Below, one piece after another: positions 17,101-61,300 of a DNA stretch of 64,000 nt (within the stretch, counting starts at the first letter, position 1; every line of letters begins with the position of its first letter). The translations under genes and the position numbers were made by a program. The notes under the pieces are model-generated. The model saw only the letters and a program-made list of their open reading frames with translations, had not been told where the DNA came from and searched no databases. The DNA is from Branchiostoma floridae (lineage: Eukaryota > Chordata > Leptocardii > Amphioxiformes > Branchiostomatidae). The stretch is taken from assembly GCF_000003815.2 (NCBI RefSeq), contig NW_023365781.1:56465-120464 (forward strand), given 5' to 3'.

Positions 17101-20100
17101 GCACTTGTTGGGATCTTTGCTGAACTTTTGTTCTGATAGGACTCTGTTGCGTTCACTTTCTTCCACAATTCGGCTTGTGTTGAATGGTTGATGAGGAAAG
17201 TGCCATTTTCTATGGTTGGAAGTTCGGTCTTGGCTGTCTGGGTCGGTCCACAGCCCAATAGCTGGGTGGGCACAGTGAACAAATGTCGCTGATACAGTTG
17301 ACTCGGACTCTTGCAGTCAAAACCTCCGTTCAGAACAAGAAAACAAGCAGAACATGACAAACAGCAGGTCTGTCGATTGCTCCATTTACATGCTTCTAAA
17401 CATGTGACTTTGTCGATCAGCCAGGAAAGCTCACAGTCACAGCGAAACGGGTTGTCGTTGATTATTATGCTGGTCACCTGTGGCCATCCTAGCACGTATT
17501 GAGAGAATGATGCAAGCTTGTTTAGACTCAGATTTATGTTACTCAGCTTTGGCAGATATGCAATGACGGTGTTGAGTTGGACGTACTGCAGTCGGTTTCC
17601 TTGTAGAGAGAGAATTTGCAAAGCTGGCAAAGTCCGCAGAGACATCCAGGACACAGTTTCGATGGAATTATAGCTCAGGTCTAACAAGTACAGATATGGT
17701 AGTGGCGGAAAGGACGAGACGTTCTTGATGTTATTGTGAGCAAGATCGAGTCGATAAGTGCTGGATGGTATCTCCCCAGGCCATGTCACAAGTCCCAGTC
17801 TGTTACAGTAGACTGATGTACGTGTACGCTCAGCAAACGTAAGATGTCTCTTTTCGACTACACATTGAGTTGGTAGACTACTACATGCTAAGATCCAAGA
17901 TGCAAAGGCAACGAGTAACAAGAAGTCACTTACAGTCATTATGCCAGGACAGAAATCTGGTTGTCACCTGGGACCTACATGTATATGCTGGTCTGCTTTT
18001 CTCGTGCACTGTCTCCTGTAGTGGAGGGATAGGTGTGTGCCACACAGCCGCTCTAGACCTCACCGTCAGTATCACTGCAGTGTTACCGCTGGGGGGAAGA
18101 TTTGTCTGAGTGCAATGATTCCTTTTATCCCTACAACCAAATTTGATAACCTGATTACATAAAAACATTGGCTATACCAGACACCTCTTCTTTGAAATCT
18201 GGAAATCTTTCAATCTGGAAATATATGCAGGAGGATTGGAAGAGATTAGCCACGAGGGAAATGAAAAACTGCAAAAAAGCCCTTAAGGACTCCATGTCAA
18301 TTGAGCAGAACTAGAAGCTTTGAAAAATAGAAAAGAGGGTGATGATTTACATAATTTATGTAAGAAGGCTGTGAAGAAAACAGAAAAGAGAGGAGGAGTT
18401 ACCGCCAAAAACGTGTGCAGCCGATAAATTGGAACAAGCTGCGAGCAAGAGAAAAGCACATGAGAAGGAAGGATAATGATAGAGGAGAGATGGAAGGAAA
18501 GCACATTCAGGACCATGAACCGACAGACTGAAACAATTCCAAGATACAACCATTACATATGTACACAATTTACAACTTTTAAAAGAAAATTAATCTTAAA
18601 GAGTTCTAAAAAGTAAAACGCCATTTGAAGACTAGCTTTCTGATTACATTCAGTGAAAGTAGGATACTGCTGGGGCATTTGTTTTGTAACCAACCTTGCA
18701 TAGCCAATTAGGAACATTGTGACAGTCAAAAAGATAAGGATGAATGGCAAGGTACATTGTACCACATACAATTGTCGTGCAATTAAGTTCTTCTTTGTAT
18801 AGTTATCATATCTTTTAAATTGGAAGATTGGACTTTAATTTCAACTTAAAATGATTGTGTATGCATGCATGCTTGAAAGTGATTAAAAAGAAATATTTAA
18901 GAAGGTAACGCTAGTTCACCTTTATCCACTGGGTAACCTTTATCAGTTGTTTTCAAAAATGGTATTTAATGATCTATCAAGTAGGCAGAAGGTGCAATAT
19001 TTTGAAAATAACAGTTACTGCTAATAGTTTGAAAATATTGCAGTTTGAAACCACCGCCCGTCATTTGACTTGATATCTATTAACACCCTGTTTTTAAAAT
19101 CAACAGATATAGGTTATTACCCATCGGATAAATGTGAATTAGTGTTATGTGTAATATGTAGAGTGTGTAATGAGTTTTGCCATATTGTACATGTACCAGT
19201 TCTGTGTATGCAGCAATGTAAATTAAATTAAACTATCTAACACTGTTGGTTGTCCCCCATAGCCAACTGAGGCCATAGATAGGATCTACATCCGCAGCTG
19301 TATCTTTGCTGTGGCAGACTGGGCCAGGGAGAACCTGTTTCTGTTAGGAGGGATCGCTATGGGCCTGGCTATTCCACAGGTAGGGCATTCTGTGTTTTCA
19401 GAGGGATAGTGCTATGGGTCTGTGTTCAACTTCTTCAATGTTTGAAGGTGGAGCCCGTTGCCCTCATTATACAGCCTTTTGTCTTCCCAACGGAAGTCAG
19501 GTACCCTATTTTTTACACCTGGGTCGAGTGAAGAAAGTCGTGTTAAGTGCTTTTCCTGTATATAAGGACACAGCATGCCAGCAATATCTACTCTCTTGTA
19601 TAAGCCTTTTCACTCAGCATTTTAATACCCCAAAATGTAAGGCCTAAGAAAATGTTATGAGTTAAGGAAAAAAAGCTGGTCTTCCACTGGTTGTAACCCA
19701 AGTTACATACACACAGACTGGCCAGGGTGTATGTTGAGAGACACAATGTTGGAAATGTATGGCTTGGAAATGTAAAAAAGAACTATTATGATGTAAAGAC
19801 ATAATTATCTTCTCAAGTATCTCAGCCAACAGCTGATCTTCCACTGATTTATGACTAAAAGCGCATACATGTAGTACACTCCTAACACTTAGTTTTATTT
19901 GTACCAGGGAAATATCACCACACACACACACACATGCACACACTCTTCCCTGCAGTACATTGAGCTTTGAACCATATAGTTTAATATCCCATTCTAAGGA
20001 CTGCAAGCCTTAGTTAACAACATGTACTGACAGCATATGACCCAGAACTCTCTTTCCTGAAAAGCAGTGTCCTTAAACATTGTTCTTTTTTCTCTGCATG

Positions 20101-21866: not shown

Positions 21867-22411
21867 AACAGTTAATAGAATTTTTCATCAATCAGTGACT
21901 AGTTTGACAGGAAAATACACATACCTCCAAATTTTNNNNNNNNNNNNNNNNNNNNNNNNNNNNNNNNNNNNNNNNNNNNNNNNNNNNNNNNNNNNNNNNN
22001 NNNNNNNNNNNNNNNNNNNNNNNNNNNNNNNNNNNNNNNNNNNNNNNNNNNNNNNNNNNNNNNNNNNNNNNNNNNNNNNNNNNNNNNNNNNNNNNNNNNN
22101 NNNNNNNNNNNNNNNNNNNNNNNNNNNNNNNNNNNNNNNNNNNNNNNNNNNNNNNNNNNNNNNNNNNNNNNNNNNNNNNNNNNNNNNNNNNNNNNNNNNN
22201 NNNNNNNNNNNNNNNNNNNNNNNNNNNNNNNNNNNNNNNNNNNNNNNNNNNNNNNNNNNNNNNNNNNNNNNNNNNNNNNNNNNNNNNNNNNNNNNNNNNN
22301 NNNNNNNNNNNNNNNNNNNNNNNNNNNNNNNNNNNNNNNNNNNTTTGGAGGTATGTGTAATAACTCGTCAAAACTAGTCACTGATTGATGAAAAATTCTA
22401 TTAACTGTTTA
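21867..22411. mobile_element. Palindromic element around an assembly gap
   Basis: The left flank acagttaatagaatttttca, continuing through atcagtgactagt to cacatacctccaaa, is repeated inverted on the other side of the gap, ending ctattaactgtt. Arms of at least 60 bp face each other across the N run, so the unsequenced part is the body of a hairpin-forming element. Confidence 0.82.
21936..22343. other. Assembly gap (about 408 N)
   Basis: A run of N with a non-round length, lying exactly between two inverted repeats. The length may be a real estimate from paired reads. Confidence 0.97.
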
Positions 22412-24579: not shown

Positions 24580-24909
24580 CCACACCTGGGTAAAACAGGG
24601 TACAGGTGTAGCAAAGTACGCGGACCAAATCGAGTGATTAATATCGCAGCTGCATCAGATGGTCTACACAAAATTTTATCGGCTTCTTATACTGCAAGTT
24701 ATTAGACAAAACCAATCATGGTCGTGCGGTGTTGTCCATGGCAACAGCCCACGTGAGCCGGGTTATGTGTATAAGTCTTCCTGATGACCTAGCTGCAGCT
24801 GCATCATCGTTCTTGTCTACCCTCCCGGCCACAAACTGCATCAGAGTTGTCCAGAAAGAAGAATCTCGCCGCCTTCTTCATACTGAAGATCAGAGTCGGA
24901 CGCTCCAGC
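24580..24909 (+). promoter_or_regulatory. Conserved upstream module of the GPCR genes
   Basis: Sequence including cacctgggtaaaacagggta, gcatcagatggtct, acagcccacgt and the block before the start ATG recurs upstream of each GPCR copy (about 26460-26620, 30185-30500 and 31600-31979). It therefore belongs to the duplication unit and probably holds the promoter and 5' UTR. The start site is not mapped. Confidence 0.5.
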
Positions 24910-26091
24910 ATGTTCAACAACAGCTCCGACCCATGGAAGCTCACTGGGGAGACATCTGCTCCAGAGTTTGTACGCTTACAGCCTTGCTACAAGTGGCATC
25001 TACAGAACAAGACTGTATCCATTGCACAAGCCGACGAAGCCTGCTCAATGCACGAGGACCTTGTGAGATTAGGGACAGGGACTGAAATATGGCTGTTGGG
25101 ATTTCTCATCATCATCAGCAATGCCGTTGTGTTCCTGGGAATCATTGGAACCAGAGAACTCCACAGACCCATCTACATCTACCTGGCAAATCTGACAATG
25201 GCAGATATTTTCGCAGGTATTGGACTTCTGTATCGAACAGCGGGTCATGACTTACATAACCTGATGTATGAATTTATGATGACTTATCAGAACTTGATAG
25301 TATTTACTCAGATGATTTCAACATCAGCGTTAACTCTTTTGTCTGTTAACTCCTACGTTGCTTTAAGGCATCCTATATGGTTCCACATCCACGCCGACAG
25401 TGCCAAACTGCGTGCAGGTGTAGCGATGACTGTTTCATGGATTGTTTGCTCCTTGCTTGCCTTCTCACCCAATATGGGCTGGAACTGTATCTATATGCAG
25501 ACCCTGACCACGGGTATCTGCATTTCATATTACCCTCTGCCCTTTGTCATCATTTCAGTATCTATTTGGCTCTTGATGTGCATAGTCATAATGTTTACCA
25601 ACATAAGTGTATTCATAGCAATCAGACAAATGGAAAAGAGAAGGCTTCAACAGGCTTCTAGGGAAAATGGTCCAGTACAAAACAGGGATGGGGGTAATCC
25701 GGAAAACAACGGTTCACAACTGGAGGCACAGAGGAAATATGAAGAAAGGGTGCACAAGTCCAGGACTGTGATGATTCATGTAGTTATTTGCTTTCTCTTC
25801 TGGTTATTACCACTCCTTTTAGTAGCAGTGTGCTGGAGTAGCCAAGATTTCTGCCCTCGCTCGATTGAACTCTTTACGGGTGTTACTCTGAACTCACTTA
25901 TAAACCCAATTGCAACACTTATCCGCATAAAGGGCGTAAGGGACACAATCTGGCGTAAACTAGCAGACATCTATCGAACACTTGTCGGTGCAATACAGAG
26001 AAACATTGTGAACCCACAGGAAGACCGAGCTGAAACAGGAGATGCCCAACATCTACAGGAAGGTCAAAACGGTCCGACTCCGGTTGATTAG
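24910..26091 (+). CDS. Divergent class A GPCR (MECA/EDG-like), intact copy 1
   Basis: A seven-helix receptor of 393 residues in one exon. I start at MFNNSSDPW because this block is kept in all copies while upstream frames are not; a start at 24847 in the same frame would add 21 residues. The N-terminus has N-glycosylation sites and cysteines. TM1 has the SNAVV asparagine, TM2 NLTMADIF with its Asp, TM4 the SW tryptophan. Loop 2 has MGWNC and a later Cys, as in S1P/LPA/cannabinoid and adenosine-type receptors. TM6 has FWLLP. The DRY position reads NSY (residues 147-149) and NPxxY reads NPIAT (332-336). Loop 3 is long and polar. The ligand is unknown. AATAAA follows at 26212. Its nearest neighbours are broken copies of itself. 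Confidence 0.88.
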   Translation: MFNNSSDPWKLTGETSAPEFVRLQPCYKWHLQNKTVSIAQADEACSMHEDLVRLGTGTEIWLLGFLIIISNAVVFLGIIGTRELHRPIYIYLANLTMADIFAGIGLLYRTAGHDLHNLMYEFMMTYQNLIVFTQMISTSALTLLSVNSYVALRHPIWFHIHADSAKLRAGVAMTVSWIVCSLLAFSPNMGWNCIYMQTLTTGICISYYPLPFVIISVSIWLLMCIVIMFTNISVFIAIRQMEKRRLQQASRENGPVQNRDGGNPENNGSQLEAQRKYEERVHKSRTVMIHVVICFLFWLLPLLLVAVCWSSQDFCPRSIELFTGVTLNSLINPIATLIRIKGVRDTIWRKLADIYRTLVGAIQRNIVNPQEDRAETGDAQHLQEGQNGPTPVD

Positions 26092-26640: not shown

Positions 26641-26972
26641 ACCTTATGTTTGTATTACCTTCTGTCTATACTGTGTATGGGCACTGTTAATATAAGTTAC
26701 AAAACCTGAGTGCAGCGCCACATTGTCCTCATCTGTCCAAAAGCAAAAATAGACTAGAAAGACCGACTTGAGAGCAAATACAGCATATTTCAGCCATCTC
26801 TCTCCAACAATAGACTGTTCTAAAACCGCCCATGTGAAAATCTCAACATGTAAGAATGAAAGTTGCCTTTTCGTCCACAAAACAATATTAGCAATAGTTC
26901 TTGTATACCAAAGCAATTCCAGGGCTTTTCCATTACAATTCAGACCACCATCACTACAGTACAAGACATTGT

Positions 26973-27279
26973 AAATATCTGTGACTGTCAGATTTGCCAA
27001 GTAGATATAGGTGGATCTGTAAAGTTTTCTTGTCGCAATGATTGCCAAGAACACAACAGCATTACTGATGATGATGAGAAGTCCCAACAGCCAAAAGACA
27101 ATTTCAGTCCCTGTCCCCAATCTAAGAAGGTCCTCGAGCATGGAGCAGGCTTTGTCGGCTTGTGCAATGGTTACAGTCTTGTTCTGTAGATGCCACTTGT
27201 AGCAAGGCTGTAAGCGTACAAACTCTGGAGCAGATGCCTCCCCAGTGAGCTTCCATGGGTCGGAGCTGTTGTTGAACAT
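26973..27279 (-). pseudogene. GPCR 5' half, inverted (copy 2)
   Basis: On the minus strand the frame begins MFNNSSDPWKLTGEASAPEF and stays collinear with copy 1 through TM1 (LLIIISNAVVFLAII) to TM2 (NLTVTDIY). Homology stops abruptly just after the TM2 Asp. The frame runs on to 26644 in unrelated sequence. Upstream flank homology continues to about 27530. The missing remainder resembles the plus-strand piece starting at about 28909, so one gene was probably split by an inversion. Not expected to make a receptor. Confidence 0.85.
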
Positions 27280-27539
27280 GCTGGAGCGCCGGGCTCTGAT
27301 CTTCAGTATGAAGAAGGTGGTGAGATTTCTGAGGGTAGACAAGAAGGATGATGCAGCTGGATCCGATGGTGATGGGTTTGATTCTGTATGAGACTGAAGA
27401 CCGTTACGACAGCGGTCGCTCCGGGAGACTATAAGCTGACTTACGTGGGCTGTTGCTATGGACGACACCGCACGACCATGACTATTTTGGTCTAATAACT
27501 CGGACCTAAGCAGCTGACCTTTCAAGCCAATGCGTAGAC

Positions 27540-28267
27540 CATCAGCAGAAAAACGTCAACAGAATTATGAATCACAAGTACGAAAATAACCTTTCAGACA
27601 AACATGAAGACATGACAATGTTTACTAACTCAACACATGCAGACTTTTATTTTCTTCCACAAAATACAAGCCTGTAGCACTAAGTCTCCTCATACGAAAC
27701 TTTTCATGTGCCTCACTACATCACAAAATCTTCATTTGAAAATGTAATCTTTGTAACGCTTAAGCCTAAAAGTAAGGGACATTAGTGGTATCTTTCATGA
27801 CCACACACAAACTAAGAAAGTTTCACGTTGATGACGGTTAGACATCCAGGTAAAAAATATCTAAAAGCAAGTCAATCTAAATTGGGTAAGATACAGAGAT
27901 CACTTCCGTATGCTCTTCCATTCATGCTGAAGATGAGTAACGGATATCTGACAAAATGTCCGGATTGTAAACTCTATATCTTATCTAGTTCTAGAGATTA
28001 AATTGTCTTTAACTAATTATAAGGACTTATTGTTCTCATCATCATCATCCAGTGGTTTACAACATAAGTAGAAATAAGTATGACGAATAAACAAGTGTCT
28101 ACAATCAAACAGCATCAAAATATTTTCTACACAACAAAATGAATCACACTTCATCGGCTCAGCCTATTTCACAATTGTTGGTACCGGTAGGATTTCTACT
28201 CTGTAGGGAGGATGTGATGTGGGGATTGGCGTCCTTTAGCTTTACAGTCCCTGTTGTCAACTTAAGG
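27540..28267 (-). repeat. Inverted copy of the 23.5-23.9 kb intergenic region
   Basis: Blocks such as aagcctgtagcactaagtct and tgaccacacacaaactaag are reverse complements of 23700-23860, and the ctcatcatcatcatcc microsatellite matches 23473. It lies between two GPCR fragments of the same orientation, so an entire intergenic unit has been duplicated and flipped. Confidence 0.8.
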
Positions 28268-28462: not shown

Positions 28463-28908
28463 ATGTTTTTGACATACACATCACCATTATACAATGCAAA
28501 CCGAAGACAAATATTCACAATTCTATATTTTATACCACAGGTATGGTGAAATATATTGTATTCGTAATGTTTCTTCTTTTTTCTTTTCCCTGTGAAATCT
28601 TCAAAACGCGTTATCTCCGTCGTTTTTAATTCATTTTAGGACTTTGGTGATTATGTTAAAGTCATATCTTAGCGGAAGTATTTTTGGATTCCTCCACTAT
28701 ACATAGGGATATCACCGGAAGAGTCTATTCATGCACGGAGGGGGGGGGGGTTTGAAAATTCAGTTTTGGATGAGTGACGATTCAAATTCCATTTCTTAGC
28801 GAAAGTGTTTTAGACTGGTCTATTTTACCTTTCTACATGTGGTGTACTAGAAGAGTTTTATTTGATTTGATTTATTTATTTTGCACAATCTTTAAAAAAG
28901 ATTGGACT

Positions 28909-29717
28909 CAGGTATTGGACTCCTGTATCGGACAGCAGGTCATGATTTACATAACTTGATGTATGAATTCATACTGACTTATCAGAACTTCATCATATGT
29001 ACTCAGATGATTTCAGCATCAGCACTAACTCTATTGTCTGTTAACTCCTACGGTGCTTTAAAGTATCCTATATATTTCCACGTCCATGCCGACAGTGCCA
29101 AACTGCGTGCAGGTGTAGCAATGGCTGTTTCATGGATCGTTTGCTCCTTGCTCGCCTTCTCACCCAATATGGGCTGGAACTGTCTCCATATGGAGACCCT
29201 GACCACTGGTATCTGCAGCTGCATTTCATATTACCCTCTGCCCTTTGTCATCAGCAGGCACCAGGGGAAAATGGTCCTGTACAAAACAGGGATGGGAGTG
29301 ATTCACCAAACAACGATGCACAAGAGAAGGCACAGAGGAAATATGAAGAAAGGGTGTACAAGTCCAGGACTGTGATGATTCATGTAGTTGTTTGCTTTGT
29401 CTTCTGGCTGTTACCACTCCCCTTAGTGTTATTGTGTTGGAGTAGCCGAGCTTTCTGCCCTCATACGATTGAAATTTTTGCTGGTCTTACTCTGAACTCA
29501 CTTATAAACCCACTGGCAACACTTATCCGCATAAAGGACTTGAGGGATATAATCTGGCGTAAACTGGCAGATATCCATCGGACACTTTTCAGCATACTAC
29601 AGAGAAACGCTGTGAACCCACAGGAAGACCGAGCTGGAACAGGAAGCCCCAAACCTACAGGAAGGTCCTGCATATGATGAGGGACAAAACACTCCAGGTC
29701 CAACCCCGATTGATAAA
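28909..29717 (+). pseudogene. GPCR copy 3, 3' part with TM5 deletion and frameshifts
   Basis: Homology starts at GIGLLYRTAGH (late TM2), so the start codon, N-terminus and TM1 are missing. TM3, TM4 and loop 2 follow (SVNSYGAL, SPNMGWNC). At about 29254 the reading jumps from PLPFVI to the loop 3 region, deleting all of TM5 and the start of loop 3, with a frame change. A second frame carries TM6, TM7 (NSLINPLATLIRIK) and the tail, which is shifted again near 29665. The TM2 breakpoint matches the inverted 5' half at 26973-27279. AATAAA at about 29822 survives. Confidence 0.87.
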
Positions 29718-31600: not shown

Positions 31601-31979
31601 GTCTGTTAGGCACAGGTGTACTAAAATGCCTAGGCCAGTCAAGCAGGCAATATCAGACCTGTACATCAGATGGTCTGCACATGTAATTTCCTCGTCTTGA
31701 AAGGTCGGCTTCTTAAGCCGCAAATTATAAGCCCAAAGTTTATGATCATACCCTGATGTCTATGGCAACAGCCCACGTAAGTCGACTTCTGTTCATTAAG
31801 CCTCCCTGCTATAGAGCGCTGTCGTGACGGGCTTTGGTCTCATACACAATCAAACCCATCTCGATCAAGTGCGGCTGCATCATCGTTCTCGCCCTCTAGT
31901 CCAGCCACAAACAGATTCAAAGTTGTCCACAGCGTGGGGATCTCATAGTCTACAGAAGTCCAGAATCATCTCCGGCAGC

Positions 31980-33212
31980 ATGTTCAACAATAGTTCCGAC
32001 CCATGGATGCCCATTGACGAGACATTTGCTCCTGAGTTTGTAAGCTTAGTGTCCTGCTACAAGTGGCATCTGAAGAACAAGACTGTATCCATTGTACAAG
32101 CCACCGAAGCCTGCTCTATGTACGAGGGCCTTGTGATATTAGAAACAGGGACTAACATTGTCTTTTGGCTGTTGGGACTTCTCGTTATCATCAGTAATGC
32201 TGTTGTGTTCTTGGGAATCATTGGAACAAGAGAACTTCACAGACCCATCTACATCTACTTTGCAAATCTGGCAATCACAGATGTTTTTGCAGGCATTGGA
32301 CTGCTGTATCGAACAGTAGGCCACGTTGGACAAACTGTAATGTATGACTTTATATTGAGCTATCTCAATCTAATCATATTTACCCAGATGATTTCAGCAT
32401 CAGCTCTTTCTCTGTTGTCTGTGAACTCCTACATTGCTTTAAAGCATTCTATATATTTCAACATTCATTCTGACAGTAGCAAACTGCGTGCAGGTGTAGC
32501 TTTGGCCTGTTCGTGGATGATTTTCTCATTGCTTGCCTTCTCACCCAGCATGGGCTGGAACTGTCTCCATATGCAGACCCTCGCCACAGATATCTGCATT
32601 TCATATTACCCCCTGGCCTTTGTCATCATTTGTACATCCATACTGTTCTTGTTGTGCATAGTCATGTTGTTTACAAACATAAGTATATTCATAACAATCA
32701 GACAAATGGAAAAGAGAAGGCTTGAACAGGCTGGGGTCCACCCTGCACCAGATGGAAATGGTCCTGTACAAAACAGGAATGAGGATCCGGATGATCCACC
32801 AAACAACGCTGTGCAAGAGGAGGCACAGAGGAAATATGAACAAAGGGTGTACAAGGCTAGGACTGTGATGATTCATGTAGTTGTTTATTTTGTCTTCTGG
32901 CTGTTACCACTCCTCCTAGTGGCAGTGTGCAAGAGTAACCGACATCTTTGCACTCGTACGACTGAAATATTTGCGTGTTTTTGTTTGAACTCACTTATAA
33001 ACCCAATTGCAACACTCTTTCGTACAGAGGACTTAAGGAATGCAATATGGCATAAACTGACAGGTATTCATCAGGCACTTGTCAACATGATACAGAGAAA
33101 CTTTGTGAACCCGCAGGAAGACCGAGCTGGAACAGGAAATGGCCCAAGTGTACAGGAAGGCCCTGCAAATGGAGAGGGACAAAACGCACCAGGTCTGGCT
33201 GAAGTTGAATAG
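31980..33212 (+). CDS. Divergent class A GPCR, intact copy 4
   Basis: A single-exon receptor of 410 residues starting at the conserved MFNNSSDPW; the frame is open upstream to 31824 but not conserved there. All seven helices are present: TM1 LLVIISNAVVFLGII, TM2 NLAITDVFAGIGLL, TM3 ending LLSVNSYIALKHS, TM4 SWMIFSLLAFSP, loop 2 MGWNC, TM5, a long loop 3, TM6 YFVFWLLPLLLV and TM7 NSLINPIATLFR. It shares with copy 1 the NSY in place of DRY (residues 149-151) and NPIAT in place of NPxxY (341-345). The C-tail is rich in Gly/Glu/Gln and ends GLAEVE. Ligand unknown. It is the best preserved of the right-hand copies; AATAAA lies near 34101. Confidence 0.88.
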   Translation: MFNNSSDPWMPIDETFAPEFVSLVSCYKWHLKNKTVSIVQATEACSMYEGLVILETGTNIVFWLLGLLVIISNAVVFLGIIGTRELHRPIYIYFANLAITDVFAGIGLLYRTVGHVGQTVMYDFILSYLNLIIFTQMISASALSLLSVNSYIALKHSIYFNIHSDSSKLRAGVALACSWMIFSLLAFSPSMGWNCLHMQTLATDICISYYPLAFVIICTSILFLLCIVMLFTNISIFITIRQMEKRRLEQAGVHPAPDGNGPVQNRNEDPDDPPNNAVQEEAQRKYEQRVYKARTVMIHVVVYFVFWLLPLLLVAVCKSNRHLCTRTTEIFACFCLNSLINPIATLFRTEDLRNAIWHKLTGIHQALVNMIQRNFVNPQEDRAGTGNGPSVQEGPANGEGQNAPGLAEVE

Positions 33213-35413: not shown

Positions 35414-38400
35414 CTACAGTGTCATTTCGGACAGCATTCGTACACAGTCACTTGCAGAAGGCCTGGACTTTGGGTCCAGCTTCCAACAGCTTTTCATCAG
35501 GCTCACCCACCCTTTACAGGGAGACATAGTATTTGGAACTTGCAACTGTACAGGAGGAGAAACAAACTCCTGTGGTTTAATAACCACCTTGTGCAAATAA
35601 TCTTTGTCTTCTGTCACACGCAAACCATACCACATCTCTAGCAGACAGAACCCCAGGCTGTAGATGTCTGCACTGGTGCCATATGGACCGGATGCAGAGA
35701 ACATCTCTGGTGCTGCATATAATACCGTTCCCGGCACTGCTCCTATCAGCCTCTTCGGGGGCTTTGCTCGGCCCACCTCTGTAATCTTCAGTACACCGTC
35801 TTCTGTGACCTGCATTTATCACACAATATCATTGTTACTTAGCATTCTTGCCATTTTGTCGCAGATGGTGGTGGAAAGGGCATGTATACATTACACATGG
35901 CTGTTTGGAAGCTTACAAATTCAAAATTGGGCGGCAATGGAACCTGATTAAAAAAATATGAAATTATATTCTTTCCAGACTTAGTCTCGTTCTCATTGAG
36001 ATTTGCAAAATACAGAGAAATTTTCGTAAAAGAAAAGTTAGGTGTGCTGGAAAAATAGGCTGGTTTATTACAGTTATTTTGCACATTTCGCTGAGAACGA
36101 GCCTTAAAATGGTGTTATGTTATAAAAAAAACGTTTTGTTATATAGAACAAGACTATGAGATTCCGGTACCAGCAAATCAATATTTTCTGCCTTGCCATA
36201 CAAACAGTTTTCTTATGTTTGAGAAATTTCAGTTAAACAACGGCAGGTTCCCACCATTATGTTATCCAGCTTTATGTCTCCATGCATGAATCCCTTTACG
36301 TGCATTGCCTTCAATCCATTGCACAGTTGCGAGGCCAAGTCCCTGACGGTGTTGAAGCCTGCTGTCATCTTAGCCTCATCATCTGGCCACCAAGCAGGAG
36401 TTCGCTCTTTGTGAGCACGTAGCCTGGGTTTGAGAAAATGTACACTGAATAGTTTGCTTTTGAGTAGTTCTCTACTGTTAAAATGTTTTTTTTTTCATAT
36501 CTGCCGATTTTTACGGTTAACCTTTACCTGTTTTACAGATTCTACTGACTGCACAATAGTCCAATGTCGAGTTTTTATATATACAGCTAGCTATAGGTGG
36601 AGAGGGGTGAGACATACCATGATTCAAGTAGATAAGGACCATACTCCATGACGAGACCAAAGCGAAGACCGTCTGTTTCAGAATGAGCTGTTGACGCCAG
36701 TCCATAGTAGCCAACAATGTGTGGACTCTCAAAATACCTGTCAGGAAGGTATAGATGATAGCTGAATGTCAGAATACATTTAGACTACTAAACCTAATTG
36801 TAGACTAGATACGTTTAAGTATTGTCGCACACCTAAAGCATACGAAAGGTAAAGCAGTAATGCTCAACATATGCTGGGGCGAAGTATGATGTTTTTCAAG
36901 TAGATGGAACTATCACCATGTAGCTTTGCTACGGCTTCAAAATTTACTTCAATAACCCGGCACTACTGATAGACACTGTTCAGGTACAATGTAGCCTTGT
37001 TAACAAATTGACTACAATAACAGGCAATATTAGCGGGTGTTTATTCGGAATATACCAAAAAGAACTTTGAAAGTGCAAACGCCTGCTGAAATTCTATTAT
37101 AAAAAACACTAGAATTACAATTTGCGTGCCGTTGTGTACATCTCTGTCTAAACTACCTGCATACCGAATATGATGGAAATTCGTCGTTCTTTTGTTTAGT
37201 TATCCTCTATATGTTCTTTACAAAAACGCCCCTGCAGTTCCGGAGCAAGCTGCTAGGGGACCAAACCCACAACATTCCCTTTCATCTTTTCATCTGCTAC
37301 AAAAATCACGACCAAAATTATGCCAAAGTGCTATTACTTTTTCTAACTAACACAGGAAGAGTTGGGACCCAAATTTTCAGTAGAAATCCATCAGCCTTGT
37401 TCACAGAATGATCCCGTCCCCAGCTTCCTGCAACGGGTCGTAGGTGCCAGATAATCCATGTTACGTACATTTTAACTCAACATACAACAGTTTATTTGGC
37501 ATCTCCCAACTGTTCCTGTGTTGGTTAGATAAAGTTATAGCATTTTTGCATAATGTAGTTTACCAACATAGATGACCTTTCATGCTAAGAAGACCACAGC
37601 ATATCTAGGACAAAGATACAAAAACCGGTTTCCGTTGCAGTTCCAAGGTCAAACACCAGGGAGCCCCAAATCGACCTTAACCTTCGTCTTCCCAACCCCC
37701 CCTAGTCACATACGTAGTATCATTACAATCCACTTAGAGGTTCTAAAGTATTTCTGACAAAATTTCCCGAAAAAAACACACACACAAAAAAAAAACAATA
37801 CTTCCATTTTTCGTGGAGGTATTGAAGGCCGTATTCACTTAGGGGCAACTGGTCAAAATACCTGAGGGTCTCCTCTTCATCTTGGAACTCGGCCACGTCT
37901 GCTTCGTGGGTGAATTCTCTTATTATCAGTACTGCCACCTTCGTGATGCCATGGGTCTTGACTTGGACCTTGTAAACGGAACCAAATGATCCCGATCCCA
38001 TCTTCTGTGGGTTGGAGGCCAAGAGCTCGTCCAGGTCGTACTGTATGTCTCTTAGATGTTTGAGATTGAAGAGAGCAAGGTTTCCGCGAAGCGCGTTGCA
38101 CTGGTCGAATTGCGGACTGTACAGACTGAGCAGGACGTCTTGGCTTCTAGCATCTCCCTCGAGAGACTCAATCATTTGGATGTCAGCTTTTGCTACCTTG
38201 GGAATAGCATTCTTCAGTTTACTCAGATATTCTCTGGGCCTCTGAAAGCGCTCATTCACAAATGCTTCCAACTGGTCGGTTTCCCTAATGTGTTTGACCA
38301 CCTTGTCAGTGACATCTTTGATGTACGCCTCTTTGTCTTCATTGTAGGTTTTCATGAACGTTTTGTCGCTGGCCAATTTCTTTATGGTCTTATTTAAAGC

Positions 38401-41400
38401 AATCATTCCAATGCTTGGGCCACTGACAAAGGCAGAGAGAACATCAACAGCAATACCAAAAATAGATGTCTTCGACGCCTTTACATCTTTGTCTCCGATG
38501 CTACTTTCTGTGTCCCATAATGATGCAGTCGGCAACAACGTAAGGTCGTCACCCAAGGCTTCCTCGAACTCATGTTCACGTGTCTCTTTGAGCAGAGTGA
38601 ACTTATCTTTAAACATCTGAATGAGACTAGCTTCAATCGTCTGAAAGTACTGTTCATTAAGCAAAAGTCCCCTTGCGTGCCTTAGTACAAGCTTAGCTGT
38701 CTTTTCTCGGACAAGATCGCACTCTGCAATGGAGGTGATGTTCGGAGCTTCATTTAGTGCATTGTGCGCAATGGTCGTCTTTGTCTCAGCAACCTCCAAG
38801 TGGCTCCTTAAATGCTGCACTGCATCGCTTGTTTTCACGTCAAGCTCCTCATTCAGAACTTTCATAACTTTGTCAGTGAGATGTTGCAACTTCGTCAGCC
38901 GTTCAGACACCACGCGAGCTTTTGCTTTTCGTTCCTCCTGGCCTCTCATTACATTGTTTAATATGGCTCGGACGATTTTGCCGGATTGATCGATGAGCGC
39001 CCAAATCAAACTGAAAAACAAACACATAAAGAAATTTTTCAGCAATAATCTTCACCACCTACAATCCATTGTATCGTGGCATAAATACACTGATGAGGTA
39101 CTAAAGACACCGACCTGTGTTGGACCATGAGCTTGTGCTTGAGACTCCGCAGAAGAAGCGACTCAATCCCACCCAATAGCTTGTCTAGACCATCAGCCAT
39201 GTATCCAGCAGATTCCTTGGCCTGAAAGGACGGTACTCAAATATGAACACCAATGACCGCATAATTTGAAATGCCAGTGTCCTTGCAAATTTGGTTCATA
39301 GCAAATTATACCTATTAGTAAAATGTTACGTCTTTCTAGCACAATGTCTACTTTCTTATATGCAATTTTATTCATACCTTGGCTGAAAACCAAAGCAATT
39401 GTGTCTCATCTAGTCGTGGAAATTGGTGTTTCAGTCTACGCAAGGTGTGTCGTTTGACTTCCTCTTTCTCGTAGTCTGGCACTTGATCCCACTTGTTGCA
39501 CACAAATAGCACGTTGTCACAGTCCTCTGGTCCTGATCTATTTAATGCCCTTAACAGTTCTGCGACCTAAAACAAAGGATATATATACCTGTCTTTTATC
39601 AATAAATATGAAAGGAAGTACGATGTTAACACCTCAAAATCGTACACTTTTTTTCTAAGGAACATTCCACCCCAGAAGAGGGTATCATAATTCCTCAGAT
39701 AATAAATTGTTATGATTGAATCCAGTTTGTTTTATCAAATTTAATATACATTGAAACCTGAACGCAGGACAAACACTGTATACATAGATATCCTTAGAGG
39801 ACCATTTCAATTGTGCAATGGTGGGAGAGGACGTGGCCGATATAATAGAACTGTTTGGTACTGTAAAATTATAATACTATGATGTTTTAGGATTACTTTT
39901 TTGGGTAGACTAAATATGTGGACAGAGACGTCATCATTACTATCAGCCAATGCGTTTCAACTATCATTTGTGGGTCTGTATCCGAAAATTGTCTTTACAT
40001 GTACACTTGCTGTGTACCTTCCTCAATGTCACTCGGCTGCTTTCGTTAAACTTACCCTGTCTACCTCGGTTTGTAGTTGACACCGCCATAAATTCTATAA
40101 CGGAGCATCATACGACGTCGACTTCTCTCTTACCCAAGTGCTGAAAGCCAGGGCGCAGAATTGTATTCGAATATTCCATGACTGATGACTAAACGTCGAG
40201 GAAAAGCCCATAGAATAACCCAGATCATTGCGTTGCGCCCTCCTGATGAAATGTCACGAAACAAAGGACAGACCTGGGCTTTACAATTGAATAGAATAAA
40301 ATTGAACCGAATAAAATGATTATCCCCCTTTGATTGATTGGTTAATTGATTGGTTAATTGATTGGTTGATTGATTGAATGAGGTTGGAGAACGCTTGCCT
40401 ACTCACGTTCCATTGCTGCAGGCCACCTGCGTTGGCAATATTGATGACATAGATGAGGGCATATACTTCAGGAATGTACTTGCTGACTTGTTCGTCCACC
40501 AACAAACTTTCTCCCAGACCAGGGCTGTCCACAATACAAATGCCGCCCTTATGCACAAAGAAAATGTGAAGTTAGATTACATGTTCCGATCGCAATTAAT
40601 GTGTATTATTGTAAGTATTGCTAGGGATTTGCCTTTTTTGAAACATTGGTTTATTGATTATTTGATTATCAAGTAAATATTTAGTACATAGAATGAATGT
40701 TGAGTGGTGATATTTTTATCATGATTCAGTCAAAACAAGGAATACAACTTGATTTTATGTTCACCTCTAGCATAGTCAACGGCCAGTAGATTTCCACCTT
40801 ACTGCAACGTGAGAGTTTGTTGCCTCTCATGTGTATGTATCGGGAAATTGTCTTCAGGTCCTCTTCTGCTGGTCCATCTAGGTACATATTGAGGACCTTC
40901 AAACCAGTGACGGGGTCCGGCTCATTTAGGTGGAATACTGCTTTCTTCCTGGTACCGTACTTGATCTCACAGATAGCTGATGTCGTAGCTAGCAACGATG
41001 TTGGAAGGATGTTTTCCCCAAGTATGGCATTCAAAAGGGTGCTTTTCCCAGAGGAAGTTTCTCCTAGAACATACCCATTTATCATCTGATTAGAACAACA
41101 GGACACATCCATAAGGAGGTAAATTTTGTGTTGAATTATTTCTTTATGTCTCTGTAGATTTGCATATTTAATGTATTTTGTTGGTCATATGACCCTATAG
41201 TACCGAATGATCGTTAGCGTGACGTAAATGGATTGGAGGGGTCCTATATATGTGGTGTCTTGCACCCCTTTCCACTACACAGTTAAAGGATATACCTGCA
41301 ACAAGTATTGGGTAGTCGTCTTTGGCAAGTTGGTCTCGACATCTTTTCAGAATGTCACCAACGTCTCCAGATAAGATGCGCATTTGTTGACGGACATCAG

Positions 41401-44400
41401 GTTCTAATGTGGTCATTAGTAATTCTGTTGCAGAATCACACAGTTGGAGGAGTTCCTGTCGGGTTTCTTTGTCACGTTTTAACATGGCTCTCATCTTTGT
41501 GGCAGCCTAAAAGTGAAGGAACAAAACAAAAACTACAGTCAAACCTGTATTAGCGGTCACCTTTGCATAGCAGCCAACTGGCCATAGTGGCCACTTTTTG
41601 TCGGTCCCTAGGATTCGTAATGATTAAGAAATAGGCTTAGCGGCCACCTGTCCAACGCGGCAACGGCCATACGATTTCCGGTCCTGTTGATACAGAAACA
41701 CTGCCTATTGCAACCATACTGCAGCCTTATGTCACCCTGCACCGAGTTTGAAATTGTAGTTTGCGAGGATTTGGAGTTCCTGACAGGGTCATTTTGGCGG
41801 AAGCATTAAAGTGCAAGTCTTTATCGGTGAATTGACCGATCGAGACAATGTTACTTGGTGAGAAAGATTTGTGGGAACTGAAATCATGTGTAGCTTGCTC
41901 ATGGTCAATTGATCAACATTTTCTCTATAGTGACCACTTGTCTATAGTGGCCATATTTCTCCAGTCCCTTGAGTGGCCGCTATAGATAGGTTTGACTGTA
42001 CATGTAGGTGGAATAGCCATCTAACGTGCATGATCAGAAACTGCCGTATGTTGTTTCTTGTTTATAGCTTTATTTCGAAATGCAAATGAAATCGAAATGT
42101 ACTGAATTTTTTTATATTGGAACAGCAGCCTCAAATTTGGAATGTTTCTTCGTAATGCTTCCTTATAACGTCGAGGGTAGCCATTTAGCTCAATAAATAG
42201 CGATATACATATCTACGTTTCCACTTAGGACGTATTTACCTTATAAATCGGACTGCAGATATTTTAGTAACAGATAATGTGAACTGACCAAATGCTGCAT
42301 TACACCCCTATCTCTACATGTTTTTTTTTTCACTGTGCTACCAGAAGAACGTAATAAAAGTACTGCATCAAGCGTTCACTGAATGTTAAACATAATTCAA
42401 AAGTACTATTAGTCAGTACTTACTGATTCGGGGCGCAGTTCAGATTTAGTTGCAATCGCCAGACTTTGCAGCTTCATGACTCCTTGTGGTTTGTCTGAAA
42501 ATACCAAGATACCGTTAGTAATTTATCTTTTAACGAATTATTGGAGGTTAATCTTAAACGTATTTCCTGTGATTTCATTTTGCTTTGATTAGAAGTGAAG
42601 ATCAGAAGAACGGATGAAGATCATGATAAGGTTCACCTCCTTTTCTCTAAGTATGAACTTGTGAACTGCACATCATGAATAATTAATTTATTGTAAATGC
42701 ATACCCAAAGGGCTGATTGCAAATACATGTAACGTAAAAATATAAGAATGATGGATGCGATGTAATCAAGTTAACTTCTTTTGAGAGTATGGAAGCCGAT
42801 TTTATCCACTTCTTCTATAATATGTAGGTTCCTTGATTTTTTTATCTAATAGAATTGTGTGCCAAATCAAGACAGAGTTATGATCAGGAACAAATAAAGC
42901 TCAAACCCACCTCTGAGATGAAAATAATCCTTCCACTGCCTGTACTGCTCCTCCAGTATGATGACTCCTATCATCAAGTCCTGACCGGCAACATCTCGCA
43001 TCCCATCCGTAATGAGGTATTTTGAAAGGTCACTACTCAGCTGTCCAGACCTGTAGTCTGTCCAAAACCTTTCCAAGCTTTCGTCGTTGTCTGGAACCAA
43101 GTGGATGACTGCGCAGCCTGATTTCACCTCCAGAAGGTCGATCCCGTATTCATCTATTTCCAATAATACTTTTCTTGTCCGCCTTTCAATCTCTTCTCTG
43201 GGCAGAATATTTTCTGCTGCTCTCAGTAAGTCAATCGTTACCAACCCCTTCTTGTGTAGGAACTCGAGGACACGAATCTTTTCCTCCTTTAGTTTCTTCT
43301 CTACCACTTCTTCATCGTTATGCTCAGTGACATGCCGGCGCTTTCTGCCGATGCCTGTTTCTTCATCTGAGCTCAAGGAGCCTGAATCACTTGGTGGCGT
43401 TCCAGTTGGTCGTACGTAAAGAAGGGCTTGCATAGCTGCAATGCAAAGAATGCATTTTTAAAAAATCGTGTCCATACGTTACATACTAAATGTGGCAAAA
43501 ATGCAGATTTTCCACTGTATGTAATTCTCTACACATAAATGATAAGTCGTGCTATCATATTCCTAAAGTATATGCAGAAAGTACGAGCAAACATTGGTAA
43601 AATAAACTCAATAGACGTACGTGGTGGAGTTAGCCGCTGTATGATTTCAGCAGCAACGTCCGACATTTCCTCCTCGACACTGTCTCTTTGTACACGTCTG
43701 GCGCTCAGCTGCTTCAAGGTGGGGGAGTATTTCCCAACTGATTCACTGAACGTCTTAAAGTTATCCTGGTTTTCATCTACCCATATAGGAAATATACGCT
43801 TCCTGCTTTGTAGACAAGTTTCAAACTCCAGTTTTGGCCAGTAGTGTTTATTTAGTAATGACGTGCTGACGACAATGACGACAAGTTGCAGATTTTCACT
43901 CCCAAGGGTCGACATTATTCTGTTACGAATAACTTCACCAGGCTTAATCGAAATGTCATCGAAAAATATGTCGTCTTTGTCCAAACCCTGTTCCTGGAGA
44001 GTACGGACCAGTGGTCGGACAATAGAGTCTTTGTCTTCTCCTGCGTGGATGATAAAAATCCTTGGTTCTGCAATGAAAGGAACGTAGATATAGTGTTATA
44101 CAATTCTGAAACCTGTAGACTGCTAAGTGGTTGTATTCAAAGATCGACACATGCGTACTGTCGACTTTATGGCAGTGAAACATAGACTGTTTACTCACTC
44201 ATAGAACTACCTACCAGTCCAAAATCATGCCAATAGCATGTCCAGAGATTTACGAGATGTCAAAAGTTAACTCGTTCCGCGTCAGTACCTAAGAAAGTTG
44301 CTAGGGGGCCCCAAATCTAATCATTCCGAAGTTTTAGCAAGACCTACCTCATACCAAATATCAAGACAATTCACTCATAAATTTTCAAATTCACTGACAT

Positions 44401-44801
44401 ACACTGACAAACACACACACACACACATACACACACAGAGAGAATTCGAACTTGCATGTCAAGTGGGATTTGATGAATGATACAAAAAAATGAAGCTTTA
44501 ATTTACCTTTCGTCTCCGTGTCTCCGCTCGGCCCTTCATCACTCAAGAGTCGTGAAAGATGTGGATAACGTTGTTGTAGAGCCTCACGAAACACCGAGAA
44601 CGCATTCGGTCCTCTTGTAGGTAATATATCCAACAGGGCCTTCACTTGGCTTACACGCGTTGGCTGTCTCTCAATCTCATCCAAGTGATCCCAATTCAAC
44701 ACTCCTTTGCCCATTAGATACCTACGAACGTCTCTAAATCGTAGGTCACTTGCTATCTCAAAGCCTTTGGAACTAAGGATGTCTCTGTGTCGTTGCTCCA
44801 T
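35414..44801 (-). CDS. CARD-TIR-GTPase-pseudokinase protein, 13 exons, 1372 aa
   Basis: A probable intracellular innate-immune or cell-death signalling protein. Exons (5' to 3' on minus): 44801-44507, 44067-43621, 43435-42911, 42494-42424, 41506-41296, 41063-40765, 40547-40407, 39566-39378, 39221-39115, 39010-37862, 36737-36618, 36423-36255, 35809-35414. All junction phases agree. The start is fixed by an in-frame TAA six bases upstream. Residues 1-95: CARD (LLDILPTRGPNAF). 99-247: TIR (IFIIHAGEDKDS; KPGEVI BB-loop; WPKLE with Glu179). 248-420: unassigned, with ERFWTDYRSGQLSSDL. 510-730: dynamin-like GTPase with GETSSGKST (517-525), DSPG (623-626), NKWD (687-690). 730-1090: helical. 1099-1372: DSTYK-like kinase with GSGSFGSV, HGDIKLDN and APE, but VAVL (Leu1123) and EVG (Glu1252) replace VAIK and DFG. 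Confidence 0.88.
37225..37480. repeat. Dispersed repeat in kinase-gene intron
   Basis: The gctgctaggggaccaaaccc motif and the following phrases resemble gttgctagggggccccaaat at 44296 and agctgccagggagcccataa at 57349. A moderately repeated element with the consensus 'ctgccagggggccc', often ending near a CA run. Confidence 0.5.
39585..40400 (-). other. Intron between GTPase exons 7 and 8
   Basis: Lies between the G3 (DSPG) and G4 (NKWD) exons. It contains a ttgattgattggttaattga microsatellite at about 40327-40380 just downstream of exon 7. No exon seen. Confidence 0.7.
41534..42000. mobile_element. TA-flanked MITE (Tc1/mariner-type signature)
   Basis: Ends cagtcaaacctgtatta and tagataggtttgactg are inverted and are bounded by ta at 41534-41535 and 41999-42000. 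The interior has repeated gtggccac motifs and no coding frame. It is in intron 4 of the CARD-TIR gene. Diverged relatives occur at 12875-13085, 21478-21680 and 53150-53400. Confidence 0.8.
44285..44450. repeat. Dispersed repeat with CA tail in CARD-TIR intron 1
   Basis: gttgctagggggccccaaat, then taccaaatatcaagacaatt, leading into acacacacacacacac. The same order of motifs with a CA tail is seen at 57295-57465. Confidence 0.65.
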
Positions 44802-58300: not shown

Positions 58301-61300
58301 CACATCTGCGCTGTACAGGCCCCCCCTCCCCCTCATGAAACAGTGACAGTAACTCACATGTCCCAGACCATAGTCTGTGAAGCCCAGTGTCCTATGCACA
58401 TCTGCACTGTACAGGCCCCCCTCCCCCTCTAGTAGCTGCTGCTCTTGCATGTTAAAGTATTGATGATGGGAGCACAGGTCACATCTGAGGGTAAAGGAAA
58501 ATCACAGTCCAACATTATAGGCACATAAATATAGTTTTATTAGTACATATAGCCTAGTTCAAATACAATGGATTTAAAACACCCAATAAATTACAATTAA
58601 TGCTTAGATCTATGATCTTAAATCTAAAATCAAAGCATTTATGAAAAAATATGTTAAACTTTAAAAATAATTTGTTTTCAACATTCAAATCAAAGACAAG
58701 TCAAATATATTACAGACTATCAACCACACTTTAACCGAGACGGGAGCTGATACCGACTCTCAGGCACATTTGACCTTTTGACCTGTTGCTGACGAAACAC
58801 TTTCATTCAGGTCACATGACATAAACTTTTATCAGAGGACTAACAGAAAGCTTGTTGATTAGAGGTTTACTTTGAGTAATGAAATGGCATATTATATATA
58901 GAAATGCTTTCAACATGGTTGTGAATGTACAAACAACAAATTAAAGGCATTTCCAGTTGCATAAGACAACCCACCTTTCTGCTGCTATTGCCATGATTTC
59001 CTTCTCCACAATGTGTCTGACCTGAGCAAGCTTCCTTCCCCACCTGAGACAGGAAATAAGACAGAAACATTTAACACTTAAACATCAATTTCCCATCATA
59101 AATAACAACATACATTGTAAATCATCTGTCTCCGATGTTGAATTGTGTTTTGAAGCTGCTGCCTACCCTGTCTACAGTGACGCCGGCCACTGCCAGGCAT
59201 ACATTGTAGGAAAGGTAAAGGTAAAGGTCCCAAAGCCTTTTTGAGGACAAACACATGTTGGGCAGTGGGTTGTTATTTCACCATCTAGGAGATGGTATTG
59301 GAAGGCGGAGCACTACCACCTTTCCCTCCCCAAACAAAGTCAGAGGCTTCTGAGGTACAGAATGATGTGACTGTTATTTCCCCACCTGGTGTTGATGTAA
59401 GAAGGAGGCTTGCTGCGCGGGCGGTACTCGTACACACTGCTGGCGGGGTTTCCCGGCTGGGGGTGCAGGGTGGAGTCCAGCACCAGGGCAGTGATGGTCC
59501 GCACAGCCAGGACGTTGGCCTGGGTCTTCTCTATCTCCTCCTGAGAAATGATGGTTAAAGCTGTTTTAGACACTTTTAGACACTTCAAACTATAGTTATG
59601 TACATGTGTAGAAGTCAATGAGATACCCTTTGTAAGACGCAAGTATCGAATTATCAGAAAACCTTTTATTGCACATTTCTGCCTCACTGAGCTAAGACCT
59701 GGTCACATTGTAACAATCATAATACATACATATCTGTGTACATACAAATATCTAACCTAGTCTTGACTAGTACATTCGACTTCCTCTTGCTTCTTGGTAA
59801 TTGCTAATGTAGCGAGCTGTATGATTGGTCAGAGTTGGTTTATCGAAGGCTGTAAGTAATGTAAATTTCTCTTTACTATTAAAGTACCTGAAGTGGGCAA
59901 ATTTATTCAACAGATAGCAGAATAGAATGACACTATCGTACAAAAGACAATTCTACATTAAAATGTACTTTGTCTTCTACCTTTACCTAAACTACAAAAT
60001 TGTCAGATTCTTTGCTCTGGAGGACTATATGAGACCTTACCTCCCTACTCTCAGCAGGTACAGTGATGGGCAGGGCACTCAGGATGCCCAGCAAACCTGC
60101 CCACGTCTCCTCAAACTGTGTCCGTGATGTCCAGCCTGGAAATGGCATAAATGTAGGGTCAGTAGATGACATCAACAATGATGACCATCATTCTACCAAC
60201 ACAAGCAGATACTTGAGTACAGGGAGAGGCAGCCTCAGCTCAGGGCTCTAGCCAGCTTGAAATTTTTTTCCGTCAGCCAATTCCCATTGTCGCAAAAATA
60301 GCGAAAACACTGTTCCATGAGTTAGAAAAACTGAACTGAGACCTCGAAAAACGGGTTTTTAATTAGATTATCGTATGCTAAAGGACGCCGACACACTTCG
60401 TCAGTGTGTGGTTTTTACGGCCATGGACGGCGTCCCCAAGCCGCCTGTAGCTTCCATCAAGGATTTTTGTCCGTCAATGTTGACGGATTGGTTTTAAAAA
60501 ATTTCCGTCACACGCAGCAAATTTCCGTCAATTGACGGAAAAACGGACGCTGGCTAGAGCCCTGCCTCAGCTATACATTTCTATGTTATCAACAAGGTAT
60601 AATAACAAGAAAACCAAAAATTAGTTTCCTAAAGAGCTATGGTGAGATGTCACTGGATATGTGGTACTGATTCTTCATTAGAGTGTTTGGCATGTGGTAT
60701 CTTCCTAAAAAAAAGTATTATTACCATTTAGCTTAGCAATTTCAAAAACACTTTTCCATGTTGTACAGAGCTAGAACTTTGTTCCAACAGACTATACAAA
60801 GTTTTAACTCTGTACAATTCAACTACCATCATATGAACTAAGTCTTATATCAAGTCTTCTCTTGATCTTATATATAGCATGTTGACAAATGTCACACATT
60901 ACACCTACCAACAGCATTTATCCTGAAGATGAAGTCCTTCAGCACTTCTCTCTCCTGTAGAAAGTCAAACGGCAGCTCTGGTAGTTTTGTCCCCGTCTCT
61001 CCCCCAGGCGACGCCCCCCAACCCATCTTCCACACGATTGGTGGAGTTCTGGCATAGCTGTTGACCAATGGCAGCCTGGCTAGGTTCAGCACCACGTTCC
61101 TCAGGGGTGCAGCAAGGAACTGTGGGAGTCTGGTGTTACCCGGGGACAGGGTAGTTGTTAGGCACTGCAGCAGCTCACACATCTGTCTGCAGGCCAGAAG
61201 AGCCCTCTGTTGATCTGAAAGTGCATTGCATACCAAAAATACACTAAGTGGATAGAATTTAAACAGACTTTATACATATACTAACTGAGTCCTGATTCTT

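Follow-up and report, generated by a model that had tools for sequence, protein, structure and literature searches.

Structure of the gene

We examined a window of 64,000 nucleotides (nt) from the lancelet Branchiostoma floridae (assembly GCF_000003815.2, contig NW_023365781.1, positions 56,465 to 120,464; here C223:56465-120464). On its minus strand, a gene model of 13 exons extends from position 44801 to position 35414 and would encode a CARD, a TIR domain, a TRADD-N-like segment, a dynamin-like GTPase and a kinase fold. Sequence comparison is best explained, with a probability of about 0.62, by one chimeric gene in which a CARD-TIR-TRADD-N front, ending in a stub of its fourth exon, is spliced onto the GTPase-kinase exons 5-13. 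The genome searched is the 513,431,437-base assembly of 431 contigs; C-numbers denote contigs and L-numbers denote loci, all from this same lancelet genome.

An earlier sequence-only reading had proposed 13 exons joined in a stop-free frame of 1372 codons, and a script joining the exons from the window rebuilt this model with identical exon edges. All 12 introns are bounded by GT-AG, and the joined frame of 4119 nt consists of 1372 codons and a TAG stop with zero internal stops. An in-frame stop lies directly upstream of the exon 1 ATG, and four paralogues have the same start. Paralogues at other loci of the genome match exons 1-3, and a paralogue on C10 matches exons 5-13; by eye, the exon edges correspond for most of those compared. 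The reading had also given the domain order as CARD, TIR, GTPase and kinase fold and had suggested a hidden Markov model search of the translated model as a check. In the whole protein of 1372 amino acids (aa), Pfam finds CARD (6.1e-16), Dynamin_N (6.2e-22) and Pkinase (3.5e-35), and TIR_2 is obtained from exon 2 alone, so that the order holds.

Table 1. Exons of the gene model and features of its fourth intron; positions are those of the window
Feature	Position	Strand	Basis
Exon 1: ATG start and CARD, aa 1-98, phase-1 donor	44507..44801	-	Pfam, PDB, paralogues
Exon 2: TIR_2, aa 99-247, W-x-x-x-E glutamate kept	43621..44067	-	Pfam, PDB, 15-sequence alignment
Exon 3: charged linker and TRADD-N-like domain, aa 248-422	42911..43435	-	PF20694, family alignment
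Exon 4: 24-codon stub (71 nt), donor TCA/GTAAGT, phase 0	42424..42494	-	tblastn, donor scoring
Unspliced exon 4: V-S-T-D, then TAA (stop 42411-42409)	42409..42423	-	translation
Miniature inverted-repeat transposable element (MITE) within intron 4, Tc1/mariner-like	41534..42000	-	sequence, genome copies
Exon 5: helical N-terminus of GTPase module, phase-0 acceptor AG/GCTGC, ATG 41494-41492	41296..41506	-	C10, paralogues
Exon 6: GTPase P-loop GETSSGKST and switch I region	40765..41063	-	Dynamin_N, PDB
Exon 7: GTPase G3 DSPG	40407..40547	-	model, Pfam, PDB
Exon 8: GTPase G4 NKWD	39378..39566	-	model, Pfam, PDB
Exon 9: GTPase domain end	39115..39221	-	model, paralogue comparison
Exon 10: helical stalk, hydrophobic stretch, start of kinase fold, beta-3 lysine missing	37862..39010	-	C10 exon, hydropathy
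Exon 11: kinase fold, HIVGYYG region	36618..36737	-	Pfam, C10
Exon 12: kinase fold, HGDIKLDN (C10: HRDLKLEN)	36255..36423	-	PDB, C10
Exon 13: kinase C-lobe, EVG for DFG (C10: DMG), TAG stop	35414..35809	-	PDB, C10

The CARD-TIR-TRADD-N front half

Exon 1 alone matches the CARD family PF00619 at 2.7e-17, with 63 bits against a curated cut-off of 23.9, and its best CARD match in the PDB is RAIDD (1.2e-10); it is 49-64% identical to the near full-length paralogues. These matches bear out the CARD assignment. For the TIR domain, the Pfam scan of the whole 1372-aa protein yields no match at E<=1. Scanned by itself, exon 2 matches TIR_2 (PF13676) at 2.7e-10, with 41.2 bits against a curated cut-off of 28, and its closest solved structures are TIR proteins, namely 3h16 (3.1e-14) and the NAD hydrolase AbTIR (5e-12); this assignment is likewise sound. 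The glutamate of the W-x-x-x-E motif (E80 of alignment A2) is invariant in 15/15 copies and aligns to the E of AbTIR WTNYE. We take this glutamate to be the catalytic residue of TIR NADases, although the motif is also present in non-enzymatic TIRs. Because the closest structures include AbTIR and the glutamate is invariant, NAD-directed activity of this TIR domain is plausible.

The segment that follows, left unassigned in the sequence-only reading, does exist as exon 3, and it can be given an identity. The TRADD-like_N model PF20694 matches 9/10 family members at E<=1 (best 8.2e-6); the window copy itself reaches 0.00087 and 19.5 bits, below the cut-off of 23.7. The segment is thus TRADD-N-like on its sequence, short of proven. 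A profile search of the PDB with this exon returned no TRADD. It did return two designed TIM barrels, which are repetitive weak matches and were taken as chance. The Pfam scan at E<=1 found no NACHT or NB-ARC in the 1372-aa protein, which therefore does not count as a NOD-like receptor.

Searching the genome with the full protein gave at least 37 matches (34 of 385 first-look candidates scored), including TIR copies on many contigs that are 51-74% identical. Copies of exon 3 occur at 11 further places among the loci examined (our own grouping), and a CARD match lies less than 6 kb from such a TIR match, on the same strand, at 14 places besides the window. Lancelet genes of the CARD-TIR-TRADD-N(-LRR) family, some of which end in leucine-rich repeats (LRR), have homologous exons 1-3, and so does the window gene. 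Judged by these homologies, its front half is a member of this expanded family.

The CARD-TIR-TRADD-N-LRR genes on C12 resemble the window gene in their first three exons (TIR 70-75% and exon 3 ~45-50% identical) and in a recognisable start of exon 4. They differ in what follows: a long exon, which in L042 is 938 aa and bears LRR, stands where the window has a 24-codon stub and a GTPase-pseudokinase. Four C12 copies run on past exon 3 into sequence matched by the L042 exon, and in L043 this match is split over two frames. No Pfam family was found in the scanned 560 aa of the L045 copy, and no match to the LRR exon was seen in the 2.9 kb downstream of exon 3 of the C4 copy. In the window, tblastn with the L042 LRR exon returned just the exon 4 stub and one match at E 6.5, so no LRR-bearing fourth exon was found there.

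The C12 genes form a tandem array at 20.44-20.49 Mb, with the 938-aa LRR exon in L042:5651-8464 (-). By eye, that exon starts with a stretch similar to the terminal part of a NACHT module; the 450 nt before it showed no nucleotide-binding core. Another C12 copy, at L022:745-1257 (-), has a stop codon in its TRADD-N exon and may be a pseudogene within the array.

The GTPase-kinase tail

Dynamin_N covers aa 513-687 with 78.8 bits against a cut-off of 27, and the GTPase motifs G1 (GETSSGKS), G3 (DSPG) and G4 (NKWD) are all intact. Together with the Pkinase match, this confirms the tail as a GTPase-kinase module. The best solved relatives of the GTPase domain, which is what they have in common with the window protein, are a bacterial dynamin-like protein (2j68, 4.7e-17) and the mitofusins (mitofusin-2, 9.3e-8). 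We know of no CARD, TIR or kinase fold in either.

When exons 5-10 were searched alone, at least 68 matches were obtained (68 of 81 candidates scored), the nearest being the C10 gene; among the matches listed, more distant groups lie on C1, C2, C10, C15, C16, C54 and C156. The C10 gene matches exons 5-13 and shares most of the compared exon edges. Identity to C10 is 56% for exon 5, 43% for exon 10 and 57% for exon 13. Within exon 10, the maximal 19-residue Kyte-Doolittle value of the hydrophobic stretch is 1.67 in the window, 2.25 in C10 and 2.21 in the L060 fragment. It is a possible membrane paddle, and the window's version is weaker than those of the relatives.

The kinase fold differs from that of C10 at two catalytic positions. 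The beta-3 (VAIK) lysine is lost (KVAVLIIREF in the window, KEAALKIEKE in C10 and VAIKII in STK25), and so is the DFG aspartate (ITEVGRA in the window, IADMGLA in C10 and LADVGLT in L060). The window kinase retains the HxD aspartate with the following asparagine (HGDIKLDN) and the glycine-rich loop. In contrast, the C10 kinase reads AALK, HRDLKLEN and DMG and looks catalytically able by its sequence; the more distant C1 paralogue L060 reads VALK, HRDLKLEN and DVG. As both lost residues are kept in the nearest paralogue, the window kinase is probably catalytically dead, and the kinase-fold output envisaged in the sequence-only reading is not supported as an active kinase. The best 60 of 337 distinct PDB sequences matched at E<=1e-10 are kinases in general, and no DSTYK is found among those 60.

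The surroundings of the tail relatives were also compared. No CARD was seen close to the other tail groups (149 matches, 150 scored of 187 candidates); the same CARD family search does list the window's own CARD. The nearest Death-domain match to these groups is ~75 kb away on C2 (150 of 588 candidates scored), and the nearest TIR_2 match is ~45 kb away, also on C2. The window's own TIR is absent from the genome lists of 85 PF01582 and 145 PF13676 matches, so these lists say little on where TIR relatives lie; the search with the full protein is the informative one for that. Given this and the 150 of 588 candidates scored, the absence of Death-domain and TIR matches near the tail groups is weak evidence.

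Two other features of related type were observed. On the same scaffold as the window gene, ~50 kb past the window, C223:168921-170463 carries a further pair of Death domain and TIR_2. At L054:2-841 (+) and L056:2754-3002 (-), an N-terminal domain of ~55 aa (two copies in L054) precedes dynamin-like GTPase exons; Pfam has no name for it.

The junction between exons 4 and 5

Exon 4 (DKPQGVMKLQSLAIATKSELRPES) is the sole exon of the model that rests on weak homology. The L042 LRR exon matches the window by tblastn at 42516-42418, the expected place; the database was small and E was 0.089. On C12, the LRR-related exon begins DMAQTVQDFQSLTIT..., and in the C7 copy (L020) DMTQMVQKLPSLTMA lies downstream of exon 3 (E 4.9). 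The GTAAGT donor of the window sits where two paralogues examined have GTGAGC (read as VS), with a stop four codons on. Exons 4 and 5 join phase 0 to phase 0, and random stretches offered an in-phase GTAAGT within the 83-nt frame of exon 4 in 1.3% of cases.

At exon 5, both the acceptor and the early ATG are identical in C10. A readable phase-0 acceptor is present at the exon 5 homologue in 5/6 other paralogues examined (L054, L063, L056, L057 and L065) and is less clear in L058. The head of this homologue has no ATG in L056, L057 and L065, and in L054, L056 and L065 an ATG-containing open reading frame (ORF) upstream runs up to a possible phase-0 donor. Based on these acceptors, the missing ATGs and the upstream frames, the exon 5 homologue is an internal coding exon in at least part of the family, and it is mainly for this reason that exon 5 of the window is predicted to take its coding sequence from exon 4.

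The gap between exons 4 and 5 is 917 nt, of which 467 nt are a MITE. This element has TA at both ends and, by eye, 13-nt inverted ends (TACAGTCAAACCT/AGGTTTGACTGTA), and it stops 27 nt short of exon 5; a repeat search with a minimum of 14 listed no inverted pair there. The genome contains at least 40 copies (40 scored of 2994 candidates, itself included), the others being 84-95% identical, and we assume the element to be Tc1/mariner-like. Without it, intron 4 would measure ~450 nt, so that space for a 3' end, a promoter and a 5' exon would be tight.

Several observations weigh against a single gene, and the first concern the donor of exon 4. Its intron side is perfect and its exon side is poor (A at -1). 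It scores lowest of the 12 donors, at -2.77 versus 6.6 to 11.4, on a small, rough matrix of 22 training donors that includes the other 11. A looser donor class would fall in phase by chance in 12% of cases. The strong donor AAG/GTAAAT at 42239 might close the 5' untranslated exon of another gene, and position 42074 carries an AATAAA; between exons 3 and 5, no stop-free, phase-keeping exon ending at 42240 was found for that donor. The exon 5 ATG stands at codon 5, as it also does in C10, L054 and L063. The small first exon upstream in some paralogues was not found in the window (best E 1.2, rejected); a leave-one-out trial recovered 3/4 such exons but not that of L065, so the search could also overlook a divergent first exon in the window. 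No such exon was found in C10, L072 or L059 either, and L072 has almost nothing before its exon 5. Because none is seen in C10, that gene may start at the exon 5 ATG, and the window gene likewise. Upstream of exon 5, the C10 and window DNA match over exon 5, ~29 nt of intron and repeats, which is uninformative on a common 5' exon. Moreover, tblastn with the whole model (E<=1e-3) found no CARD or TIR over 28 kb around the C10 gene, including ~12 kb upstream, and the nearest CARD match on C10 is ~1.2 Mb away. Finally, the join of exons 4 and 5 is a prediction from genomic sequence.

These points are the basis of the most serious alternative, in which two neighbours lie on the same strand. The first gene would end within exon 4 at the stop 42411-42409 and encode a truncated CARD-TIR-TRADD-N protein of ~450 residues; the second, with a 5' untranslated exon to itself, would begin translation at the ATG of exon 5 (41494) and encode a GTPase-pseudokinase of ~922 residues. 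It would account for the atypical donor, for the alternative donor and AATAAA downstream of exon 4, for an ATG that C10 shares with A at -3, and for C10 stretches without CARD or TIR. Lancelet gene models are known to include false fusions: in 2016, many 'novel' domain combinations were attributed to prediction errors, and fused neighbours were refuted by expressed sequence tags (PMC4967905). However, the three exon 5 homologues that lack an ATG must be internal coding exons, the space between the halves is short and half filled by the MITE, and the in-phase GTAAGT is improbable by chance. We therefore regard two genes as unlikely, albeit deserving serious weight, and the window model as likely one gene. 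The claim that both halves lie in one chain is supported by the compatible phases and the internal, coding exon 5 homologues, and it is left exposed by the poor exon 4 donor and the exon 5 ATG.

Age and constraint of the two halves

Compared by the Nei-Gojobori method on seven exon pairs, the tail and C10 give a synonymous divergence (dS) of 0.64-0.98 and a ratio of nonsynonymous to synonymous divergence (dN/dS) of 0.30-0.48. The front half and its paralogues give dS from 1.35 to saturated and dN/dS from <0.09 to 0.27; being pairwise, these values assign no branch. The split of the tail from C10 looks younger than the splits of the front half, and the tail looks less constrained. The dN/dS values point to constraint on both halves.

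A second alternative accepts a single transcript but regards the gene as decaying, with a kinase that is losing its function and a product that is unused. The loss of the beta-3 lysine and the DFG aspartate and the higher dN/dS of the tail would fit such decay. In contrast, 1372 codons are open, every intron keeps GT-AG, and the P-loop, G3 and G4 of the GTPase are retained together with the glycine-rich loop and HxD-N of the kinase; decay is thus an improbable account. Least credible of all is an assembly or recent-rearrangement artefact that joined on one scaffold two halves lying at separate places in the real genome: C223 looks unplaced and has 188,785 bases versus 19-35 million for the contigs bearing most relatives, which also tells against the chimeric gene, but the stretch from exon 1 to exon 13 contains no N (the N runs of the window are 745-844, 4856-4955 and 21936-22343), both halves have the same orientation and fitting phases, and their junction falls in an intron beside a homologous exon stub.

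Other features of the window

A cluster of rhodopsin-type receptor genes lies at 24793-26088 (+), 28896-29674 (+), 31815-33209 (+) and 26647-27555 (-). The 7tm_1 family matches 24793-26088 at 2.3e-17 and 31815-33209 at 6.7e-21; the copies at 26647-27555 (7tm_1 0.0036) and 28896-29674 look partial. Two ORFs at 59343-61269 (-) match the C-terminal HEAT model of huntingtin (3.2e-11 and 3.4e-31), and a lancelet huntingtin gene therefore probably runs through the end of the window. A 360-aa ORF at 16884-17963 (-) matches LRR_8 (8.1e-13) and, by eye, continues into a hydrophobic stretch; it is a probable leucine-rich-repeat membrane protein.

Proposed origin and mechanism

Under the chimeric-gene explanation, a CARD-TIR-TRADD-N gene from a family in which some members end in LRR would have lost nearly all of its fourth exon. 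Splicing would then join the remaining stub, in phase 0, to exons 5-13 of a dynamin-like GTPase-kinase gene that no longer has its original first exon or exons, and both halves would be translated as one protein. Because the tail is positioned where the C12 paralogues carry their repeats, it would serve in sensing and regulation. The GTPase and helical segment could drive assembly by binding GTP and contacting membranes, with the pseudokinase offering a non-catalytic docking or switch surface. Such assembly would cluster the CARD and the TIR domain; the clustered CARD would recruit CARD partners, the TIR domain would probably cleave NAD, and the end result would be a cell-death or inflammatory output.

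A more speculative extension, which we consider rather unlikely, is that the gene is an animal 'integrated decoy' receptor, in which a copy of a dynamin-like GTPase-kinase native to the cell has taken the place of the repeat sensor. Plants deploy catalytically inactive copies of their own enzymes as baits. A lancelet decoy kinase could have lost its catalytic residues because it needs merely to resemble the intact C10 paralogue for attacking parasites, and parasite interference with the decoy would set off TIR and CARD signalling.

Relation to known systems and significance

Lancelet domain shuffling is known already; what appears new from the sequence is the GTPase-pseudokinase tail on a CARD-TIR-TRADD-N front. 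In amphioxus, 28 TIR combinations have been counted, 20 of them amphioxus-specific (2008, PMC2575513), and TIR (PF13676) is over-represented among dispensable lancelet genes (2025 pangenome, PMC12373286). The closest published class is the DEDD2 clade of TRADD-N proteins, with 46-71 members in cephalochordates (eLife 2021, PMC8195603). As in the window gene, invertebrate members combine a constant Death-like domain and TRADD-N with variable flanks, and their fusions include LRR followers and AIG or GBP GTPases (PMC8195603). The word 'dynamin' has 0 occurrences in the main text of that paper, and the order TIR-TRADD-N-dynamin-kinase is not named in the main-text parts available, which do not extend to the supplementary tables. 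Likewise, no CARD-TIR-TRADD-N-dynamin-kinase protein was found among the titles and abstract starts that literature searches listed; supplementary tables may hold one.

The sequence-only reading likened the GTPase-kinase half to invertebrate DSTYK-like proteins. Human DSTYK is reported to act in STING signalling and cell death, and the kinase-dead forms K681A and D777A failed to restore STING signalling in that study (PMC11933320), whereas the window kinase has lost two catalytic residues.

A real junction would mean that a CARD, a probably NAD-cleaving TIR domain, a TRADD-type adaptor, a GTPase of membrane type and a pseudokinase are combined in a single protein. The gene would also be a well-placed case of sensor replacement, as both halves have relatives in the same genome, and the nearest relative of the tail keeps an intact-looking kinase, so that direct comparison is possible. 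If the proposed origin is true, this gene would test two ideas: that lancelet receptors arise by exchange of tails behind a constant death-signalling front, and that animals, too, bait with catalytically inactive copies of host enzymes.

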